Made by a program: the position numbers and the translations under genes. A stretch of 11,224 bases of DNA. It comes from a bacterium (GTDB taxonomy: Bacteria; B130-G9). Within the stretch, counting starts at the first letter, position 1; every line of letters starts with the position of its first letter. Under the pieces are notes generated by a model. That model did no database searches. It was not told the DNA's origin and was given only the letters and a program-made list of their open reading frames with translations. Shown here piece after piece: positions 1-11,224 of the stretch. The stretch lies in NCBI GenBank assembly GCA_021160245.1, contig JAGHCW010000052.1, forward strand, positions 1-11,224. Reading direction: 5' to 3'.

Positions 1-776
1 ATCGGCTTGCCGCGAAGCGCGCGAATGAGCTCCAGCTTCAATGCAACGTCGGCCCCCGGGCTGGACAGAGCGGCTATTCGCTCGCTGATTAGCTGTGCTT
101 CTCGTTTGGCCCTGGCCCTCACAGCATCCGCCTCGCGGCCCTTCTGCTTAATGTGCGACTCGGCGTCAATTCTGGCCCTTTCAAGCGCTGACCTGGCGTT
201 TGCGAGGCTGGTCTTGCCTAGGGCGGTTGCGCGCTGGAGTTCACCGTTCAGCCGTTCCTTCTCCGCATCCTGCTGCTGGCCGACAGACGCGATGCGATGC
301 TCAAGAACCTTCTGGCTCTCAAGATGCGTTCGGAATGCCTCATCAAACGCAAAATCATCGAGCGTGAAACTCTCTATCGTCACGCCGACCTTTCCGAGCA
401 ATTCGCTCAACGCTGCGCGGCATGCAAGCGACTTTGACCGCCGCTCATCAGCATTGAAAAAGGACGCGCTGTCGAGTTGACCGAAGATCGAGCGGATTGT
501 GCTCCTTGCAGCGGGAACCAGAAAGAGACTCTCAAGCTCATCCTGGCCCGCCTCTATCATTCTCAAGAACTGCGCCGCGCTCTGCTCGCCCATGAGGACA
601 GCCACGCAGCCCTTTGGGACGCGAAATGTGCAGCGACATCCCGCAACGACACAGGCCCCGATAGACACTATGATGATGACCGCCGAAAAAAAGCCGCCCC
701 TCGCGGTTCTCTTGCCTTTCTTATCGCTCATCTTGTCTTCGCCCGGGTTATTCGCTCCTGAGGCGGCATTTATCAT
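1..776 (-). CDS. SPFH/stomatin-like membrane protein lacking the beta core (second of a tandem pair), C-terminus beyond the window
   Basis: Reading the minus strand from ATG at 776 gives 258 codons with no stop before the window edge, so the C-terminus is missing. Residues 1-28 are polar and basic and about 29-46 are hydrophobic (a single membrane anchor), ending in V-A-G-C at 44-47, which also fits a lipobox. A short VPKGCVAV stretch at 53-60 matches VPCGCVGV of the upstream neighbour. The region around DDFAFDEAF (140-148) matches its RDFAFTSSF, and about 150-235 is a charged helical, probably coiled-coil, stretch. The roughly 60-residue beta-rich SPFH core of the neighbour is absent. The start overlaps the neighbour's stop as ATGA, implying translational coupling. 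An in-frame ATG at 731 is an alternative start. I see homology to the neighbour. That it is a scaffold partner of it is inference. Confidence 0.8.
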   Translation of the reverse strand, partial: MINAASGANNPGEDKMSDKKGKRTARGGFFSAVIIIVSIGACVVAGCRCTFRVPKGCVAVLMGEQSAAQFLRMIEAGQDELESLFLVPAARSTIRSIFGQLDSASFFNADERRSKSLACRAALSELLGKVGVTIESFTLDDFAFDEAFRTHLESQKVLEHRIASVGQQQDAEKERLNGELQRATALGKTSLANARSALERARIDAESHIKQKGREADAVRARAKREAQLISERIAALSSPGADVALKLELIRALRGKP

Positions 777-1735
777 TTCCGCGACCTCAAGGGGTCTTCG
801 CTCAGAGTGTCGAAGACTCTCAGCATGGATGATTTCGGGACAATGAATCGAGGGCCCGGTTGAATAGCGGTGACAAGTTCGGACCTAAGTAAGGCATTCG
901 CCTTAGCGGAGCCGAGCGCCTCGTTCACTAGCTTCTGACGGTCAATCCCCGCTCGCTCGATAAGAAATTCGCCCTTATTCCGCGCCTCATCCGCAATAAG
1001 GCTCGCCTCCTGGTTCAATGCCCTAACTTGACGTTCAGCCTCTTCACCTGCGCCATCGATTTGGGATTTGAGCGCCTGGATGTCTGCACTGCTCTCGGCC
1101 TCAAGCGCGGAGACGCGAGTCTCAAGAGCTCGCCTGCGAGTATGCTGACGGGCAAGTCGCTGCTGCTTCAGCTCGCGCTCGAATGACGATGTGAATGCAA
1201 AGTCACGCAGGAAAAAATGCAGGAGCGTGATTCCCTGCGCAGAGAGCGATTTCAGGAGCTTCGCCTCAACCGCCTTCGTCTGCGCATCTCTCCACGAGGC
1301 GCTTAGGAATTCGCCCGCGTCGGCTTTCTGAAACTCATCGCGAACGACACCTTTTAGGTCATTCACCATCGCGCGCCGGACATATTGCTCACCATCGCCG
1401 TTTGCGAATTGCAGCGCGGATTTTGACGGCTCAACACGAAAGCTAACCGTGGCATCGACGTAAGCGCTAATGTTGTCTCTAAGCGATATTTGCACGTGTT
1501 CAATGTCCAGTTTCTTAGCCCTTGTGCTGAAGATATCAATACGATGAAGAATGGGCAAGTTAAGATGAAGTCCCGGCATCAAGAGCTTCACCTCCGAGCC
1601 GCCTTCACCCGAGCCGCCGAACTGCGACCATCGAACGCCCACACAGCCGCAGGGGACTTTCGTGAGCGCAACAGCGCGGAATAGCCCAAGCAGGACGAGT
1701 ATCAGAATACCGACCAGAAAGACTTTGTGTTTCAT
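773..1735 (-). CDS. SPFH/prohibitin/stomatin-family membrane-anchored protein
   Basis: This 320-residue protein has one N-terminal membrane helix (about 4-24), then a beta-rich SPFH-like domain (about 26-190) containing KLLMPGLHLNLPIL (50-63) and a stretch with alternating hydrophobic residues (70-101). A long charged alpha-helical or coiled-coil segment follows (about 183-280). SPFH proteins of the stomatin/prohibitin/HflK-C type assemble into membrane-bound rings or microdomains and often modulate proteases or transporters. No catalytic residues are expected. ATG at 1735 follows GGGAAGACAGG, a usable ribosome binding site. The stop overlaps the next gene's ATG (ATGA). The gene lies 68 bases after the symporter. 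Family assignment comes from domain order and the MPGLHL-type motif. It is not close enough to HflK, HflC or YbbK for a symbol. Prohibitin-like is the main alternative. Confidence 0.82.
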   Translation of the reverse strand: MKHKVFLVGILILVLLGLFRAVALTKVPCGCVGVRWSQFGGSGEGGSEVKLLMPGLHLNLPILHRIDIFSTRAKKLDIEHVQISLRDNISAYVDATVSFRVEPSKSALQFANGDGEQYVRRAMVNDLKGVVRDEFQKADAGEFLSASWRDAQTKAVEAKLLKSLSAQGITLLHFFLRDFAFTSSFERELKQQRLARQHTRRRALETRVSALEAESSADIQALKSQIDGAGEEAERQVRALNQEASLIADEARNKGEFLIERAGIDRQKLVNEALGSAKANALLRSELVTAIQPGPRFIVPKSSMLRVFDTLSEDPLRSRK

Positions 1736-3433: not shown

Positions 3434-4531
3434 TTAATGGCCAAGCAGGCGTTTATGGCCGGGAAGGACGACGGAAGCCTCCTTCTTCTGGGCCTTCGTA
3501 TATCTCGAACGGAGGGCAAGCCCTAGGGCGACAGCGAACATCTCCGGCGTCGGGACAGCGGGCGCCTTCGGCAATTCCTTCAGCGTGTATATGAGTCCGG
3601 GGAACGGGTCCAAGGTGGCAATGCCATATCTAAAAAGTGGCGAAAGAGCTGCTCTTATTGGCGGAATGGACGCGCCTCCTCCGCAGACGAGTGACCTGTC
3701 GAACATGAGGGTTCTGCCAGCTCGTCTGGCGCGCCACAGCATATCCCTAACGCGTTCGGTGAAGACTTCAAGCTCCTCCAACACGTGCTGAGCGGCGTAC
3801 TCCGGCTCCAGACCGACGGCTTTCTTTCCAGAAAGAAGCGCCACGGCCGGCCACAAGGCCACACCTAGCTTGCTCTGAAGCGCAGATACAATGGGACGAC
3901 AACCCGCCTCGGTCTCATCGCTAAAGAAGAAACCACCGTTCTTTAATAGAACGAGCTTCGTCGAGAACTCGCCCAAGTCAAGAAGGACAACATACGTGTC
4001 CTCAGAGCGCATAGAAGCCCTCTGGTACGTTGCCGCCAAGGCGAGTCCCGCTGCGTCAAAGGCGACCGGGTTTCTGTGAGATGACATCAACACCTCGTCA
4101 TAAAACTCGCACATAGACCGCCTCAGCCCCACGAATACAACCTCGCCTCCCTCGCCTGTGGGATCTCGGACGGGATTGATTGTAGAGAAACCCTTGAGGA
4201 AGTCGTTTCCAGATTGAGGCAAGTACTGTGCCGCCTCAGCAAAAGCTGCGGATTCCCAATCGCTTTCACCCATGCCGGTTAGGTCAATCCGTTTCAGAAC
4301 GACATTGGTTTCGCCATAGATGCCGATGGCGGCATCGGCTTTGCGCTTGAGCCTTCTGGGGAAGATGCCTTTCAGCGTTCTTATCAGAACCGTAGCGCCG
4401 CTGACCTTATCGCGGGGTATCTCGCCGAACGAGGCGATGGCCACAGTTCGACTCCTGTGGGGATCATAGCGAAGCTCGACTAGCTTCACCAGATGATGAC
4501 CGATGTCTATTCCGAATGTGCTCTTAAGCAT
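3434..4531 (-). CDS. pilM: PilM-like actin-fold ATPase (type IV pilus assembly / secretion platform protein), orphan
   Basis: A 365-residue cytoplasmic protein of the actin/FtsA-like ATPase fold. The N-terminal FGIDIGHHLVKLVEL (6-20) is the phosphate-1 strand-turn-strand typical of PilM. VVLLDLGEFSTKLVLL (181-196) is phosphate-2, and LVCGGGASIPPI (281-292) is the adenosine motif. FAVALGLALR (332-341) matches the usual C-terminal end. PilM normally binds ATP and the cytoplasmic tail of PilN to link pilus motor and alignment complexes. The turn in phosphate-1 carries two histidines where small residues are commoner. I chose ATG at 4531 because FGIDIG should lie a few residues from the start, and because it overlaps the preceding small ORF's stop (TGATG). 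A TTG at 4561 would add ten unsupported residues. No pilN, pilO, pilP or pilQ follows. The next gene is a symporter. Family is confident, role in a pilus is not. Confidence 0.85.
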   Translation of the reverse strand: MLKSTFGIDIGHHLVKLVELRYDPHRSRTVAIASFGEIPRDKVSGATVLIRTLKGIFPRRLKRKADAAIGIYGETNVVLKRIDLTGMGESDWESAAFAEAAQYLPQSGNDFLKGFSTINPVRDPTGEGGEVVFVGLRRSMCEFYDEVLMSSHRNPVAFDAAGLALAATYQRASMRSEDTYVVLLDLGEFSTKLVLLKNGGFFFSDETEAGCRPIVSALQSKLGVALWPAVALLSGKKAVGLEPEYAAQHVLEELEVFTERVRDMLWRARRAGRTLMFDRSLVCGGGASIPPIRAALSPLFRYGIATLDPFPGLIYTLKELPKAPAVPTPEMFAVALGLALRSRYTKAQKKEASVVLPGHKRLLGH

Positions 4532-4710
4532 CACGCAATAACATAACAATTTTCCGGACAAAAGGAGAGTATATTATACATCGCCGATCTGTCGTTCCAA
4601 GTAAAGAAGAAATCTCTGCCGTAACCTTCCGTGCGCTTTATGGTGCATTTTGTGCCGTTTGCATCCTGCAAGTCCAGCCCATTATCATACTCAAGTTCCG
4701 GTAGATTCAT
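4531..4710 (-). CDS. Small ORF of unknown function coupling the ABC permease gene to pilM
   Basis: ATG at 4710 begins 20 bases before the end of the upstream permease gene in a different frame and encodes 59 residues ending TGA at 4533-4531. That stop overlaps the pilM start as TGATG. The protein is mixed and soluble-looking, with an acidic N-terminus (MNLPELEYDNGLDLQD), a central basic/aromatic part (KRTEGYGRDFFFTW, 26-39) and two late cysteines (CPENCYV). There is no signal peptide, membrane segment or recognised domain, and no clear Shine-Dalgarno sequence, so it would rely on coupling to the permease. The evidence for it being real is the precise filling of the gap and the stop/start overlaps at both ends. 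It may instead be a chance reading frame spanning the pilM leader. Confidence 0.5.
   Translation of the reverse strand: MNLPELEYDNGLDLQDANGTKCTIKRTEGYGRDFFFTWNDRSAMYNILSFCPENCYVIA
4573..4600 (-). promoter_or_regulatory. Candidate sigma70-type internal promoter upstream of pilM
   Basis: On the minus strand a perfect TATAAT (4578-4573) is preceded after 16 bases by TTGGAA (4600-4595), matching four of six -35 positions. Transcription would start near 4566, giving a leader of about 35 bases before the pilM ATG. The hexamer lies inside the small ORF, where it encodes part of Met-Tyr-Asn-Ile, so it could be coincidence. If real, pilM and downstream genes would have a promoter separate from the ABC transporter. 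Confidence 0.4.
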
Positions 4711-5518
4711 ATCGCATAAGGCCGCGCCTCCATATACGCGAGGCGATGTAGATGAAGACTGCCGCGATAATTGGCCCGATGGCTGCCATCTTGAAGAACT
4801 CGGTTCGCCCCAGAAGGACTGTTGCTGGATAGAACGCGACAAACGCGAAGGGGATTACCCACGTGAGGAAGAGGCGAATGCCCAGAGGATAGATAGTAAC
4901 CGGGAATCTTGAGAACTCACTGATGGGATATAAAAAGGCGAAAAAGCCGGTCCGATCGAGCGTCCAGAAGGACAGTGACGCGAAGATTGTGAATACTGAG
5001 GCGTAAATCGCTGCGGCGGCCGGAATGAGGACCGTAACGGCTGCCATCTGGCTAAGGCTCACGGTCATATCCAGTTTCCAAAGGGCGTAGGTCGAGACGG
5101 CGACGCCCTTGGCCAAGATCACCACGTCGTTGGGATTGAATCCCTCGCCCATCAGCTGAAGATAGACCGGAGCCGGCCGCAATAGCCGCTGGTCGAGCTT
5201 CCCCTCAACGATGTACTTGCCGGGCAAGCTTGTCAAAAAGAAGAAAAAGATCGAAAACAATCCGAACGTGAACTCGCCAATGCCGAACATGAGCAGCAGG
5301 TGGTGGAAGTCCCAACCCTCGAGCCTCGGTATTCTGGAGAATATCGCGCAAAGCAGGGCGATGCTCATGAAGCCGAACGCAAGCGTTGCGAAGGAATCTA
5401 TCATGAAATCGGACCGATAGGCCATTCTGGATTTGAGAGTCTGCCCGAAGAAGGAGAAGAGAAGATCAAGCAGACGCAAACGACTGCGGAGCCAATTCTT
5501 CATGGATTTCCGATTCAC
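4691..5518 (-). CDS. ABC-2 type permease subunit B (ABC2_membrane_6/DUF990-like)
   Basis: This is an inner-membrane permease of an exporter-type ABC transporter, 275 residues from GTG at 5518. I preferred that start because AGGAG (5528-5524) sits five bases upstream and the upstream gene ends at 5527, eight bases away. The longer open frame from 5605 lies inside the previous gene. The protein has a basic amphipathic start, then about six hydrophobic segments, including a phenylalanine-rich stretch (GLFSIFFFFL). The cytoplasmic motif VEGKLDQRLLRPAP is typical of this family and has a counterpart in the partner permease. With that permease and the ATPase it should form a heterodimeric exporter. 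The substrate cannot be read from sequence. The 3' end overlaps the small ORF by 20 bases. Confidence 0.88.
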   Translation of the reverse strand: MNRKSMKNWLRSRLRLLDLLFSFFGQTLKSRMAYRSDFMIDSFATLAFGFMSIALLCAIFSRIPRLEGWDFHHLLLMFGIGEFTFGLFSIFFFFLTSLPGKYIVEGKLDQRLLRPAPVYLQLMGEGFNPNDVVILAKGVAVSTYALWKLDMTVSLSQMAAVTVLIPAAAAIYASVFTIFASLSFWTLDRTGFFAFLYPISEFSRFPVTIYPLGIRLFLTWVIPFAFVAFYPATVLLGRTEFFKMAAIGPIIAAVFIYIASRIWRRGLMRYESTGT

Positions 5519-5523
5519 GTGAT

Positions 5524-5528
5524 CTCCT
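5524..5528 (-). promoter_or_regulatory. Ribosome binding site fixing a GTG start
   Basis: AGGAG on the minus strand lies five bases before GTG at 5518 and overlaps the stop codon (TAG) of the preceding permease gene. This decides the start of the second permease and suggests ribosomes pass directly from one permease to the other. Confidence 0.7.
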
Positions 5529-6357
5529 AGCCTCCTTGAATCCCGAGGCGCCGAACACCTGTTGCGTATGTGATGTGGGTGATAAGGAACATCGCCGCGA
5601 CCCACGTTAGGCCGACGCCAAACGTTGAGGCCATTTGGCTGATAGGGATACGTCCGAGATATATCTGTATTGGGACGAAGTAAATGTACCTGAAGGGCAT
5701 GAACATGAGGACCGTCGCAAAGCCTTTGGGGAAGAAATCGAGCGGAATCAAAAGCCCAGCCAAGAGCCGCACGGTCATGTCAACCGTCCATGAAAGCCCC
5801 AGGTTGTACTCAATGAAAAAGCTGAAGATTCCTACGAGTAGGTTTATGCAGAAGGCCATCATGTATCCGATCGTAAGTGCCATCGCGAAAAAGAGCCAAT
5901 CCTGCAGACCATTTGGCCGTGTGAGAGGCAGTACAAGAACGCCGAACACGATTAAGGGAGCCGCGACAAAAACGCCTCGTCCGATCGTCCTGCCCAGGCC
6001 CTGCCAAAAGACCAGAGAGGGATAGTAGACCGGCCTGATGAGGTCAAGGGCGATGTCCCCGCTGCGCACTCTGTAGCCGATAAGTCGGTCGATATCCGTC
6101 TTCAGCAGGGCCCGAAGGAACCAGGCGACGCTCATGTAAGTTACCGCCTCGTTCACACTGTAGCCGGCTATCTCTGGACTGCTCTTAAAGATGGCCGAGA
6201 AGATGAAATAATTGGCGAGAAGAATGACCGGATAGCCCGAGAGCGTCATAATCGGCTTCAGCCGATATGCCACCATCTCCATGAGGCCGATCCTCATCAG
6301 AGAGCTTGCCGGGCTACTCACCGGCCTTATCCCGGCTCGCAATTGCAGTCTCGCCAT
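5527..6357 (-). CDS. ABC-2 type permease subunit A (ABC2_membrane_6-like)
   Basis: A 276-residue inner-membrane permease, the first of the two in this exporter. After a polar N-terminus it has about six hydrophobic segments (first about 40-58). It carries RSGDIALDLIRPV, the family's Gly-x-[IL]-Asp-x-x-[LI]-x-x-x-Arg-Pro-like loop, shared with the partner permease. Both permeases have clearly different sequences, so the pore is probably a heterodimer. ATG at 6357 is preceded by GGAAG seven bases upstream but overlaps the ATPase gene by 44 bases. GTG at 6321 and ATG at 6297 are alternatives, and the last gives the N-terminus most like other family members. The gene belongs with the ATPase and second permease. 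The substrate is unknown, since related trios are annotated variously as antibiotic, lipid or polysaccharide exporters. Confidence 0.87.
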   Translation of the reverse strand: MARLQLRAGIRPVSSPASSLMRIGLMEMVAYRLKPIMTLSGYPVILLANYFIFSAIFKSSPEIAGYSVNEAVTYMSVAWFLRALLKTDIDRLIGYRVRSGDIALDLIRPVYYPSLVFWQGLGRTIGRGVFVAAPLIVFGVLVLPLTRPNGLQDWLFFAMALTIGYMMAFCINLLVGIFSFFIEYNLGLSWTVDMTVRLLAGLLIPLDFFPKGFATVLMFMPFRYIYFVPIQIYLGRIPISQMASTFGVGLTWVAAMFLITHITYATGVRRLGIQGG

Positions 6358-7336
6358 CGTATATCTTCCGCACGATGTCGCTCAATTCAGGCCCTTTGAG
6401 AACAAAATCCTGAACGTTGAAGTCCGAAAGTATCCGGCGCATCAGATCACTCGGCGATATGGATTCGGTGGCAAACGTGAGCTCAACCTGGTTTGGGGCT
6501 CTTTGGACCGCATCGACGCTACTTCCATCAAAACTCTGCATAATGCTCGATGCTGAGACCGTATCGTGGAAGTCTATGAGAGCCTTACGGACTTTGCCCA
6601 TTCTTTCCTTGATGCCCTTAATCGAGCCGTTGAAGATGATTCGGCCGTTGTCTATGATGATGATCCTCTGGCAGAGGTCCTCCACATCAGTTAGATCGTG
6701 CGTCGTCAAAAGGACTGTCTTTCCGCGCTCAAGAGCTATGTGGCGAATCGCGTCGCGTACTTTGAACTTGGCTGAGACGTCGAGACCGATTGTGGGCTCG
6801 TCCAGGAATATGACGGGAGGATCATGCAGGAGCGAGGCGGCGAAATCGCAGCGCATCCGCTGGCCCAGGCTGAGTTTCCTGGTCGGTTTGTTCAAAAGCG
6901 GTCCAAGATCGAGCAGCTCCGTCATTTCTTTGAGCCGACCGTCGAACTCGACCTTGTGGACGTCATACATCTTTCTTAAGAGCCGAAAGCTCTCAATTAC
7001 GGCGATGTCCCAGAAGAGCTGCGTCCGCTGGCCGAAGAGAACTCCTATGTTTCGAACGTGGGCCGTTCTCTGCTTCCAGGGCACGAGGCCGTTTATACTC
7101 ACGTGGCCTGATGTCGGCCGCAGGATGCCCGTTAACATCTTGATCGTGGTCGATTTGCCAGCGCCGTTCGACCCTATATAGCCGATTATCTCGCCCCGCT
7201 CCACGCTGAAGGAGACGCCATCAACCGCTAGGGTCTCCCTGTAGTCCCGGTGCAAAAGGTCAAGCAGCCCCCCAAAAATCCCCTCGCGCCTCGTGAAGGT
7301 GCGATAGACCTTGGTCAGATTCTCAACGGTTATCAA
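6314..7336 (-). CDS. ABC-2 type transporter ATP-binding protein
   Basis: This is the cytoplasmic ATPase powering the two adjacent permeases. From TTG at 7336 it has 340 residues starting MITVENLTKVY, the usual N-terminus of the family. Motifs are Walker A GSNGAGKST (55-63), a Q-loop in GVLFGQRTQLFWD (98-110), the ABC signature as LSLGQRMR (155-162), Walker B VIFLDEP with catalytic E180 (175-181), D-loop GLD, and H213. The LSLGQ signature and GQRTQLFWD are characteristic of ATPases paired with ABC2_membrane_6 permeases. About 90 residues follow the ATPase core (250-340) and form an accessory C-terminal domain. A longer frame exists to 7405, but it lies in the upstream gene. TTG overlaps that gene's stop as TTGA, and there is no strong Shine-Dalgarno sequence, so translation is probably coupled. 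Confidence 0.93.
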   Translation of the reverse strand: MITVENLTKVYRTFTRREGIFGGLLDLLHRDYRETLAVDGVSFSVERGEIIGYIGSNGAGKSTTIKMLTGILRPTSGHVSINGLVPWKQRTAHVRNIGVLFGQRTQLFWDIAVIESFRLLRKMYDVHKVEFDGRLKEMTELLDLGPLLNKPTRKLSLGQRMRCDFAASLLHDPPVIFLDEPTIGLDVSAKFKVRDAIRHIALERGKTVLLTTHDLTDVEDLCQRIIIIDNGRIIFNGSIKGIKERMGKVRKALIDFHDTVSASSIMQSFDGSSVDAVQRAPNQVELTFATESISPSDLMRRILSDFNVQDFVLKGPELSDIVRKIYDGETAIASRDKAGE

Positions 7337-7740
7337 AGGCCGAGGATGGCGACTATCACGATCCCAAGGCCTACAAGCACGCCCACGAGGCAGAGCGCTC
7401 GGCATACGTTGTCGTTGCGAAACAGCTTGTCAATAAAAAACCGCCTCATCGCCTCCCTTGGCGCCCCGCTGATAAAGGCGAGAATTGCCACACCGAGCAT
7501 CGCGAAACCGAAGATGATTGCAAGCACTCCCGTCAAGGTGCTCGCTTCCCAGAGGAATGCCAGAACCTGTATCCCGGCGGTGATGGCAAGCACGGCAAAG
7601 ACGTCTAGCCACTTGTGTTTACCGAACCAGTGCTTCTCGATCCACGCCTTATAGGGGCCCGGCGCAATCACACCTGGGAGTCTTGCGCCTATCACCAGGA
7701 CGCCGAAGAGAATAACTGCGATCCTTTGAACTAAGAACAT
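7333..7740 (-). CDS. Small four-helix integral membrane protein of unknown function
   Basis: A 135-residue protein that I do not recognise. It has four hydrophobic segments, about 5-25, 44-64, 68-91 and 112-134. Between the first two is a basic/aromatic loop (KAWIEKHWFGKHKWLD, 31-46), and between the last two a positive loop (PREAMRRFFIDKLFR, 94-108) that probably faces the cytoplasm. ATG at 7740 is preceded by GGAGGAGGAAGG, a strong ribosome binding site, making this the likely first gene of the minus-strand operon. Its stop overlaps the ATPase start (TTGA). Position suggests an accessory or regulatory subunit of the exporter, but nothing in the sequence shows that. Confidence 0.75.
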   Translation of the reverse strand: MFLVQRIAVILFGVLVIGARLPGVIAPGPYKAWIEKHWFGKHKWLDVFAVLAITAGIQVLAFLWEASTLTGVLAIIFGFAMLGVAILAFISGAPREAMRRFFIDKLFRNDNVCRALCLVGVLVGLGIVIVAILGL

Positions 7741-7778: not shown

Positions 7779-7883
7779 CTCTCAACGTTTACCACAGATC
7801 GGTCCATCGCATCAATAGGTCGGGATGAGGAGTCTCCGGACGACGGAAACGGGAGAACGTCCACAACTGAACGATCCGAATAC

Positions 7884-7892
7884 TGATATTAT
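7884..7892 (+). promoter_or_regulatory. Candidate extended -10 promoter for the beta-helix gene
   Basis: TGATATTAT is an extended -10 element with five of six hexamer matches. It would give a leader of about 97 bases before the ATG at 7996. There is no clear -35 at 16-18 bases, so this rests on the extended -10 alone. Confidence 0.3.
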
Positions 7893-7985
7893 GGAAACAC
7901 CTTTCGAAAAAAGTATTGAGCCCCACGACGGACATAGTATTGTCGGGTTGTCGAATCATGCAAAGCTAACGGGTGTTCAATTTGG

Positions 7986-7990
7986 GGAGG
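7986..7990 (+). promoter_or_regulatory. Ribosome binding site deciding the beta-helix start
   Basis: GGAGG five bases before ATG 7996 sits directly in front of a typical signal peptide. It overrules the longer open frame beginning at 7825, whose first 57 codons look non-coding. Confidence 0.75.
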
Positions 7991-7995
7991 GAGAG

Positions 7996-9720
7996 ATGAC
8001 GAGGTTGTTTGGCTGTTTTCTTGCGTGTGTTTTGATTCTTTGCTTGTCAGGTTCCGCCATTTATGGGGCTGAGTATGATGTCAACTGGGACGAGACTGGC
8101 GACTTCGTGGCGATTCAGGATGCGCTGGACGTTGCGGTTGACGGCGACATCATAACCGTTCATACGGGCACATACTGCGAAAACATTCACTTCGATGGGA
8201 AGAACGTGACCCTACGTTCGCTCGATCCCGAGGACGAACAGGTCGTCGCGTCGACCATCATTGATGGTGGGGAGCTAGGCAGCGTTGTTAAGTTTGTGGG
8301 TCCGGGCGACGACACGTGCGTAATCTCCGGCTTCACGATTACAAATGGGAAGGCTGGGCACGGCGGTGGGCTAATCGATTGCTACGGTACCATTATGAAT
8401 TGCACGATAAGGGGCAACTCCGTCAGCGGTGGTGGTGGCGGGTTGTGGTACTGCAGCGGGCCGATCATAGACTGCACGATCAGGGGCAACTCCGTGGGCG
8501 GCGACTCTGGTGGCGGTGGGCTCTCCCACTGCAACGGGACGATTGCCAACTGCACGATCAGCGAGAACTCGGTGAACAGCAGCGCGGGTGGTGGTGGGCT
8601 CTCCTACTGCAACGGGACGATCGTAAACTGCTTGATCAGCGAGAACCGCGCGAGCGCTAGGGATTATAGTGGTGGCGTCTCAGCTGGCAGGGGCGGTGGG
8701 TTGTCTGGTTGCGGTGGCACGATAATGGATTGCACCATCACGGGCAACTACGCAACGCGTCTCGGCGGCGGACTATGTGATTGCAGCGGTACTATAGCCA
8801 ACTGCACGATCAACGGCAACTCCGCCGGGAGCGGAGGCTACCAGAGTGACCACGGTGGTGGGCTGTGTTATTGTGACGGGACGATCAGCAACTGCATGAT
8901 TACACAGAACAGATCTGATTACGGGGGCGGGCTATACAAATGCAACGGGACAATCAGCAACTGCACGATCAGCGAGAACGACGCCGATAGCCATGGCCTC
9001 GGTTCCGGCGGGGGGCTCGTTTCCTGTGAAGGATCAATCGTAAACACAATCGTCTGGGGGAATAAAGCGCAAGGGCATGATGAGCTGCACGCCTGCACTG
9101 GAATCACGAACTGCTGCATTCGCGACTGGACTGGGGGCGGCGAGGGCAACATCTCCGTTGACCCGCTTTTCGTGACGGGCCCTCTTGGCAATTACTACCT
9201 TTCCTCTTGCGCGGCGGGCCAAAATGCCGACAGCCCGTGCATAGACGCGGGCAGCGATACGGCGGAGAGCTTCGGCCTCGACAAATTCACAACCAGAACA
9301 GATCATGTCCTAGACAGTGGCATCGTCGATATGGGCTATCATTACCCGGTGGCGTCTGATCAGAATCCATACGTCGTGTGCTCGCTTAACTCCAGCGAAT
9401 TTAGACCGGGTGATGCTCTTGTTGGCTTCATCGAGGCGCATAACCCCGGGCCCGACATCATTGTTGACGCCTATCTCGGGTTCGTCATGCCGGACGGAGC
9501 GATAATCTCATTGACCAACAACGGGTTCGCGATTGGGATATACCCATGGATCTTTAATGTCTTCCTGCCGAGCGGACTCGATTTCGGACCGAGCGAGGTC
9601 TTCTCGTTCCCTGTCCTGCGGGGCCCAGGAACTTACCTTCTGGCCGTCGCGCTGACCGAGCCGGGCCAATTCGACTTCATCGGCGAGCCATGCTTATTCC
9701 CATTTACGATCACCGAGTAA
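7996..9720 (+). CDS. Secreted right-handed parallel beta-helix protein with cysteine ladders
   Basis: A 574-residue exported protein. Residues 1-24 form a Sec signal peptide (polar MTR, hydrophobic core, probable cut after AIYG). Residues 25-110 are an N-terminal beta-helix cap containing FVAIQDALDVAVDGDIITVHTG, the usual opening of pectate-lyase-like folds. From about 123 to 360 there are nine coils of about 27 residues with the core GGGL-x-x-C-x-GTI-x-[ND]-C-T-I-x-x-N. The DPLF, YYLSS and SPCIDAG motifs at about 388-418 resemble the end of choice-of-anchor Q type proteins. The last 115 residues (about 455-574) look like a beta-sandwich with hydrophobic alternation. No lyase catalytic residues are evident, so a surface, adhesive or carbohydrate-binding role is inferred. 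There is no LPXTG or obvious PEP-CTERM-like sorting tail. A hairpin follows the stop. Confidence 0.88.
   Translation: MTRLFGCFLACVLILCLSGSAIYGAEYDVNWDETGDFVAIQDALDVAVDGDIITVHTGTYCENIHFDGKNVTLRSLDPEDEQVVASTIIDGGELGSVVKFVGPGDDTCVISGFTITNGKAGHGGGLIDCYGTIMNCTIRGNSVSGGGGGLWYCSGPIIDCTIRGNSVGGDSGGGGLSHCNGTIANCTISENSVNSSAGGGGLSYCNGTIVNCLISENRASARDYSGGVSAGRGGGLSGCGGTIMDCTITGNYATRLGGGLCDCSGTIANCTINGNSAGSGGYQSDHGGGLCYCDGTISNCMITQNRSDYGGGLYKCNGTISNCTISENDADSHGLGSGGGLVSCEGSIVNTIVWGNKAQGHDELHACTGITNCCIRDWTGGGEGNISVDPLFVTGPLGNYYLSSCAAGQNADSPCIDAGSDTAESFGLDKFTTRTDHVLDSGIVDMGYHYPVASDQNPYVVCSLNSSEFRPGDALVGFIEAHNPGPDIIVDAYLGFVMPDGAIISLTNNGFAIGIYPWIFNVFLPSGLDFGPSEVFSFPVLRGPGTYLLAVALTEPGQFDFIGEPCLFPFTITE
8362..9075 (+). 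repeat. Nine tandem beta-helix coil repeats within the secreted protein gene
   Basis: Nine units beginning at GGGL codons (first at 8362, last at 9007) repeat on average every 81 bases. Conserved DNA such as a TGCACGATCA-type segment recurs in most coils, showing that the repeats are also similar at nucleotide level and probably expand or contract by recombination. Loop lengths between coils vary, the longest being after the fourth coil. Confidence 0.85.
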
Positions 9721-10290: not shown

Positions 10291-11224
10291 ATGATAAAAA
10301 GTGGCCTTTGCCGGGCTTTTGCAGCCGGTTTCACAATGATACTCCAATTGCTCTTGACGTCTCTTTCCGCCGGAGCGGGCCCTTCTGATATGATTCAAAC
10401 GGAAGAGGACGCCTGTTTCCGCCCATATACGAATGCAGTCAATCAGGCCACCCATGCTTCAAACGCGCTGGACGCGCTCGCCCTGGAGGTCACCCAGTTA
10501 TTTGTCGATGCAAATGCCGGCGCCGACACCAACGACGGCACGGAGGGCGCCCCCTGGCGGACGATCACCCACGCCCTGCAATCTGTAACCGGCGCCGAGC
10601 AATCCCCCGTTATTATCAACGTCGCAGCCGGCACATATTCCGCCTCAACCAATGGGGAGGCGTTTCCGCTGAACATGAAGAGCTTCGTCTCACTTCAGGG
10701 CGAGGGACGTGAGGCGACAATCCTCGATGCCGAGGACTCGTCAAACGTCATAACCATAAGTGCAATCGCCGCCGGGCCATCGCTTGATGGATTCACGATA
10801 ACCGGAGGAAACTCGACAAACGGAGGCGGCATCTTCTCAAACAACAGCTCCATAACCGTCTCGAATAACCTCATCACCGGCTGTTTTGGCGACAGCGGAG
10901 CAGGCGTCTATTGCCAGCGAGGCGAGATGCTCTTTAGCCAGAATGAGATATCTGGCAATGCCGCGACCGGGCGTCTGGGCTTCGGAGGCGCGATGTTCAT
11001 CAGCTTGGGCACGCCCCAGATCGTGGACAACGAGATCGGCGATAATGAGGGAGACAGCGTGGGCGGCCTATACATCTACCGATGCTCCCCCATTATTCAA
11101 ATGAACACCATATCTGGCAATATCTCAACGGACGATGGGGGCATTTGTGGGGGCATTTATATCGACCAAGGCTCGCCGGAAATTCGGGACAACACAATTG
11201 TCGGCAATGGCGCCATTGGCGAGG
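10291..11224 (+). CDS. Secreted right-handed beta-helix protein with DUF1565-like N-terminal module, 3' end beyond the window
   Basis: The open frame from ATG 10291 continues to the window edge (311 codons plus one base), so the C-terminus is missing. Residues 1-29 form a signal peptide, probably cut after SAGA. After a short linker, LFVDANAGADTNDGTEGAPW (70-89) and the following TITHALQSV, INVAAGTYS and SLQGEGREATILDA (134-147) are characteristic of DUF1565 modules that begin many exported beta-helix proteins. From about 150 onward, coils with the pattern [ST]-P-x-I-x-x-N-x-I-x-x-N repeat, for example SPIIQMNTISGN and SPEIRDNTIVGN. The coils are less glycine- and cysteine-rich than those of the preceding gene. 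No catalytic site is visible in the part seen. It is probably a surface or extracellular structural or carbohydrate-associated protein. The two beta-helix genes are adjacent and share orientation but not close sequence. Confidence 0.85.
   Translation, partial: MIKSGLCRAFAAGFTMILQLLLTSLSAGAGPSDMIQTEEDACFRPYTNAVNQATHASNALDALALEVTQLFVDANAGADTNDGTEGAPWRTITHALQSVTGAEQSPVIINVAAGTYSASTNGEAFPLNMKSFVSLQGEGREATILDAEDSSNVITISAIAAGPSLDGFTITGGNSTNGGGIFSNNSSITVSNNLITGCFGDSGAGVYCQRGEMLFSQNEISGNAATGRLGFGGAMFISLGTPQIVDNEIGDNEGDSVGGLYIYRCSPIIQMNTISGNISTDDGGICGGIYIDQGSPEIRDNTIVGNGAIGE

Follow-up and report, generated by a model that had tools for sequence, protein, structure and literature searches.

An SPFH gene pair in a Coatesbacteria-like genome whose lipobox-bearing member lacks the beta core

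The DNA analysed here, hereafter the window, is the entire contig C108 (JAGHCW010000052.1; 11,224 bp) from the 244-contig draft genome of an uncultured Coatesbacteria-like bacterium. At one end it carries a tandem pair of genes, open reading frames (ORFs) A and B, for proteins of the SPFH (Band 7) type, the second lacking the beta core (Table 1). Both score above the Pfam Band_7 cut-off of 23.6 bits, A with 79.7 bits over profile positions 2-174 of 176 and B with 29.0 bits over positions 85-174 only, the first half of the profile being unmatched. BLASTP aligns the two proteins with each other (E = 2e-10) from the SPFH2 helices onward, plus a short VP-x-GCV match after the anchor, and so bears out the two resemblances first noted by a sequence-only reading of the window. 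On these scores, A and B both belong to the SPFH superfamily. The SPFH1 beta domain and the SPFH2 alpha/beta domain are both complete in A, while B has no SPFH1 and is also without beta6 and beta7 of SPFH2.

Table 1. Features of the A-B locus, in window coordinates
Feature	Positions	Strand	Description and basis
ORF A	773..1735	minus	320-aa N-anchored SPFH protein; SPFH1, SPFH2 and coiled coil all present
ORF B	776 to contig end (1..776)	minus	SPFH protein without beta core; cut by contig end
ATGA overlap, stop of A and possible start of B	773..776	minus	Sequence; similar overlap in 10 of 13 other pairs
Alternative B start, MSDKK	729..731	minus	The G002 orthologue starts here, by alignment and an AAGGAG upstream in G002
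Hydrophobic N-terminal helix of B, signal or anchor	639..698	minus	Predicted helix, residues 12-31, low confidence; sequence
Lipobox V-A-G-C of B	636..647	minus	Lipobox at this place in 8 of 9 other aligned B proteins and in no A protein
Deletion junction in B	582..590	minus	About 116 residues absent (G002 B ~49-164, end of beta1 to beta7); tblastn split 590/582 and alignments
Retained SPFH2 helices alpha2-alpha4	393..578	minus	Alignment to the orthologue; model helices
Retained long CC1 helix (341-63) and second helix (53-12)	12..341	minus	AlphaFold2 helices 131-223 (pLDDT mostly ~76-92) and 227-240

No contig overlapping the window end was found in a DNA search, and the continuation of B was located through folD. 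This is the next gene after B in Candidatus Coatesbacteria bacterium Zod_Metabat.233 (G002; locus L073), which represents another genus of the same family, and in the window's genome it lies at base 176 of contig C101. The start of C101 reads AAGCCGATCATCATC..., the minus strand of the window ends in ...GGCAAGCCGAT, and the stretch AAGCCGAT is common to both. Across the C108-C101 join, B remains in frame and finishes as ...GKP-IIILPDDAASGLGESLPEILKSLPESPGVKRLN-stop, matching G002 B (...GKPIVILPEGMDSGAGLEELLRATSAPQAVGP-stop). C101 thereby supplies 33 further residues (bases 1-108), followed by folD, and B comes to 276 aa from the MSDKK start at 731 or 291 aa from the ATGA start at 776.

The recovered C-terminus holds no beta core, and a search of the window's genome with G002 B did not find the missing beta segment elsewhere; we therefore rejected the idea that the core had moved into the C-terminus or onto a different contig. 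Both ways in which the sequence-only reading might have been overturned, a profile search placing B outside the SPFH proteins and a beta part turning up in its C-terminal portion, thus went in its favour. We consider it highly improbable that B is not an SPFH protein, as the match to only half of the Band_7 profile might suggest, or that its beta part lies elsewhere in B. The first was rejected on the Band_7 score, the BLASTP match to A and the grouping with G002 B described below, and the second is opposed by the complete C-terminus.

G002 carries an orthologous pair. Over SPFH2 and the coiled coil, its A and window A share 48% identity, and over the shared region its B is 47% identical to window B. 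The G002 B protein has 389 residues, with the beta part present. In a tree that took in A, B, HflK, HflC and stomatin proteins, window B pairs with G002 B (100/100) and the two fall within a B clade (95.4/89), which makes window B a true B. Against this orthologue, window B lacks about 116 residues in frame, from approximately residue 49 to 164 of G002 B, a stretch that opens at the end of beta1 and closes just ahead of the first SPFH2 helix. The loss of about 60 residues originally proposed holds relative to A (a gap of 60-70 residues) and falls short relative to the orthologue; G002 B has a subfamily-specific insert that accounts for part of the 116. In human PHB1, SPFH1 and SPFH2 meet at the beta5-beta6 linker, and Leu95 sits in beta7 (PMC12624060); the deletion therefore removes all of SPFH1 plus beta6 and beta7 of SPFH2.

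AlphaFold2 models of the two B proteins (four sequences each; low mean pLDDT, 61 for G002 B and 64 for window B) were used for their helix/strand map only. The G002 B model has strands at 42-49, 57-62, 67-69, 75-80, 140-146 and 152-163, a helix from 165, and CC1 at 248-339. In that of window B, the anchor helix is followed by the SPFH2 helices, CC1 (a single helix of 93 residues) and a second helix, and strands are almost absent. Foldseek matches G002 B to prohibitins at 1.7e-11 and window B only weakly, at 0.011.

Tandem A-B pairs occur as a conserved arrangement of adjacent SPFH genes in G002 and in 13 other genomes, unrelated ones among them; in one family from which several genera were sampled, most genomes have the pair. 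(A scan of genome contigs with window B alone gave no relatives.) All 13 strong B matches (E < 1e-117) span the profile almost from end to end, and none is without the beta part. Comparison of the sequences thus indicates that window B is a lineage-specific, in-frame deletion derivative, its beta-less form, seen in one genome, being derived, because the sister-genus orthologue and every other strong B relative keep the beta core. The sequence-only reading had proposed a hetero-oligomer resembling HflK/HflC or the prohibitins, one subunit of which keeps only anchor and helical parts. The hetero-oligomer is still the natural interpretation of a conserved tandem pair whose B is related to SPFH proteins; as a designed architecture, the reduced subunit is not supported by the comparison, since it is found in this genome only. 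As a separate observation, the B gene of genome G042 (L071 4102-5226) can be matched to the family only across two reading frames, the sign of either a frameshift or a sequencing gap, with a run of unknown residues inside.

In alignment, the B proteins share an invariant cysteine, at which 8 of 9 aligned B relatives have a lipobox (such as TTGC, LASC, LSGC or VSGC) and none of the A proteins does; window A has no lipobox. The V-A-G-C already picked out in window B is real: it follows a hydrophobic stretch and aligns with the lipobox cysteine of these relatives, which makes B a lipoprotein candidate by pattern only. G002 B keeps a nearby cysteine and not the lipobox. The ATGA previously taken to couple the two genes is likewise a true overlap of the stop of A with a possible start of B, though the start of B is ambiguous: in the G002 orthologue the start corresponds to the internal MSDKK (window 731) and is preceded by a clear AAGGAG. 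Coupling in the window is plausible, because 10 of the 13 other pairs offer a candidate B start within a 4-nt overlap with the stop of A. Across the 13 scattered pairs, A is membrane-anchored, B usually bears a lipobox, and the 4-nt overlap is frequent.

The deletion could be an error of assembly or a minority strain variant in a metagenome-assembled contig, the real gene being full length. We keep this reading because only one contig shows the deletion, and that contig is an 11.2-kb piece of a 244-contig draft that ends inside the same gene. It is nevertheless unlikely in our judgement: the join keeps the reading frame and links the end of beta1 to the start of a helix, and the missing segment is on no other contig.

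Within the window's family, the A-B pair is being lost. In G001, a member of another genus, the A orthologue stops short just past SPFH2, its last residues being ...MRDFAFAASS; B is missing there, and folD is still close by. In G003, folD has an ABC ATPase gene as its neighbour, and neither A nor B was found in this genome, which is 83% complete. At the G001 locus (L078 3642-7047) three small plus-strand genes replace B between A and folD, at least two of them with lipobox-like signals.

What became of the shortened protein may be read in two ways. We give about an even chance that the locus is a copy of the scattered A-B system whose short B is a fairly recent loss-of-structure allele in a pair-losing lineage, not an evolved half-subunit. 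Over alpha2-4 and beta8, window B is identical to the orthologue at 49 of 81 positions and keeps 24 of 28 hydrophobic positions; that these are kept although their sheet partner is partly gone suggests that the change is recent and has brought little adaptation. Several observations pull the other way. The deletion preserves the reading frame, as a random one would do one time in three, and what is left of B is open and complete, with anchor, lipobox, CC1 and C-terminal strand. The remnant is not clearly accelerated either, its branch over the shared region being 0.47 as against 0.56 for the intact G002 B; in the whole-protein tree the branches are 0.60 and 0.48, respectively. Differences by codon position (0.42/0.32/0.71 for B, 0.39/0.25/0.64 for A) indicate that constraint is still present on B, slightly weaker than on A. 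Finally, A is intact in the window's genome, and the absence of the pair from G003 comes from a genome that is only 83% complete.

Some of the same facts speak for a functional half-subunit, a possibility to which we give real but minority weight, in which short B is made as a lipid-anchored, mainly helical subunit. It would join A through CC1 and the C-terminal strand, and the resulting dome base would be without every second SPFH1 domain, giving fixed side openings for membrane substrates. The open, in-frame ORF, the retained lipobox, CC1 and C-terminus, the retained ATGA overlap and a rate of evolution about that of the orthologue all fit such a protein. Set against it are its occurrence in one genome only, the dispensability of the pair in a sister genus, and the additional loss of beta6 and beta7, which leaves a broken SPFH2 with its hydrophobic face unchanged. 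The boldest form of this reading, that a naturally occurring SPFH subunit without a beta core still assembles with a complete partner via lipid anchor and coiled coil into a membrane dome with built-in side portals, strikes us as rather doubtful. We rate decay, with short B probably having lost its function, somewhat above the functional half-subunit; the shortening more probably marks the onset of the pair's disappearance than a novel architecture.

We take the locus for one occurrence of a two-gene SPFH system that is scattered among genomes, with A anchored in the membrane and B normally a complete SPFH protein and putative lipoprotein. A would have a cytoplasmic N-terminus and a single membrane helix and B would be exported and lipidated, so that the SPFH parts of both would lie on the periplasmic side of the inner membrane, as those of HflK/C do. 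On the model of HflK/HflC and the prohibitins, full-length A and B may alternate in a periplasmic ring or dome, a mixed cage of anchored and lipidated subunits. SPFH1 would lie on the membrane with SPFH2 above it, CC1 would form the wall, and the C-terminal strands would form the cap. If short B were still incorporated, every second place in the dome's base would be open. This need not do harm, because an entryway for membrane substrates is present in native HflK/C (PMC12048511).

The recurrence in unrelated genomes of an SPFH pair composed of one membrane-anchored and one lipobox-bearing subunit is of interest in itself, and no description of such an SPFH lipoprotein pair was found in a literature search that was not exhaustive. 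Such a cage, if it exists, would be held to the membrane by two different kinds of anchor. The deleted B offers a natural test of which SPFH parts assembly needs: if short B still works, such cages would owe their cohesion to the wall helix and not to the beta base.

Elsewhere in the window, the pair neighbours an SDF symporter gene, with folD (on C101) on its other side. A lone PilM-like protein of type IV pilus assembly is encoded at 3434-4561, the contig having no other pilus gene. An ABC-2 type exporter set occupies 4691-7405, in which two overlapping genes for ABC2_membrane_6 permeases come after a DrrA-like ATPase gene, and two secreted right-handed beta-helix proteins (NosD-like; DUF1565) are encoded at 7825-9720 and 10291-11224, the second cut by the contig end. 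In two other genomes (L019 3810-6788 and L070 3684-6998), the pair directly adjoins a malate dehydrogenase-like gene, next to which are succinate dehydrogenase or succinyl-CoA ligase-like genes.

Among known systems, the pair resembles HflK/HflC (the SPFH3 pair, FtsH modulators) in its tandem SPFH genes, N-terminal anchor and long wall helix, and presumably in the periplasmic placement of its SPFH domains. It differs in the lipobox of B and, in the window, in the missing beta core. By NCBIfam scores, A and B are not HflC or HflK (A reaches 32.2 of the 134.4 bits needed for HflC and 10.4 of 159.4 for HflK; B has no match), and an HflK-HflC pair is encoded separately in the window's genome, on contig C46. 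Full-length B finds its best matches, by profile and by structure, among prohibitins; PHB1 and PHB2, each with a TM (transmembrane) helix and complete SPFH1/SPFH2 (PMC12624060), form an alternating hetero-oligomer of the kind that A and B may form, and, unlike B, have no lipobox. SPFH11a and SPFH11b (Hinderhofer et al. 2009, PMC2636767) are invariably adjacent, duplicated SPFH genes; compared by description only, they parallel A-B as an adjacent pair whose second member is without one part. The last comparison is with the NfeD1b-SPFH1b (stomatin) operons. The window has no NfeD or stomatin gene beside the pair, but in two unrelated genomes (L066 2224-5275 and L071 4102-8442, the only loci with this context) the order is NfeD1b-like (ClpP-type) protease, stomatin, A, B, which suggests that the A-B pair is functionally linked to the NfeD1b/stomatin membrane protease system.
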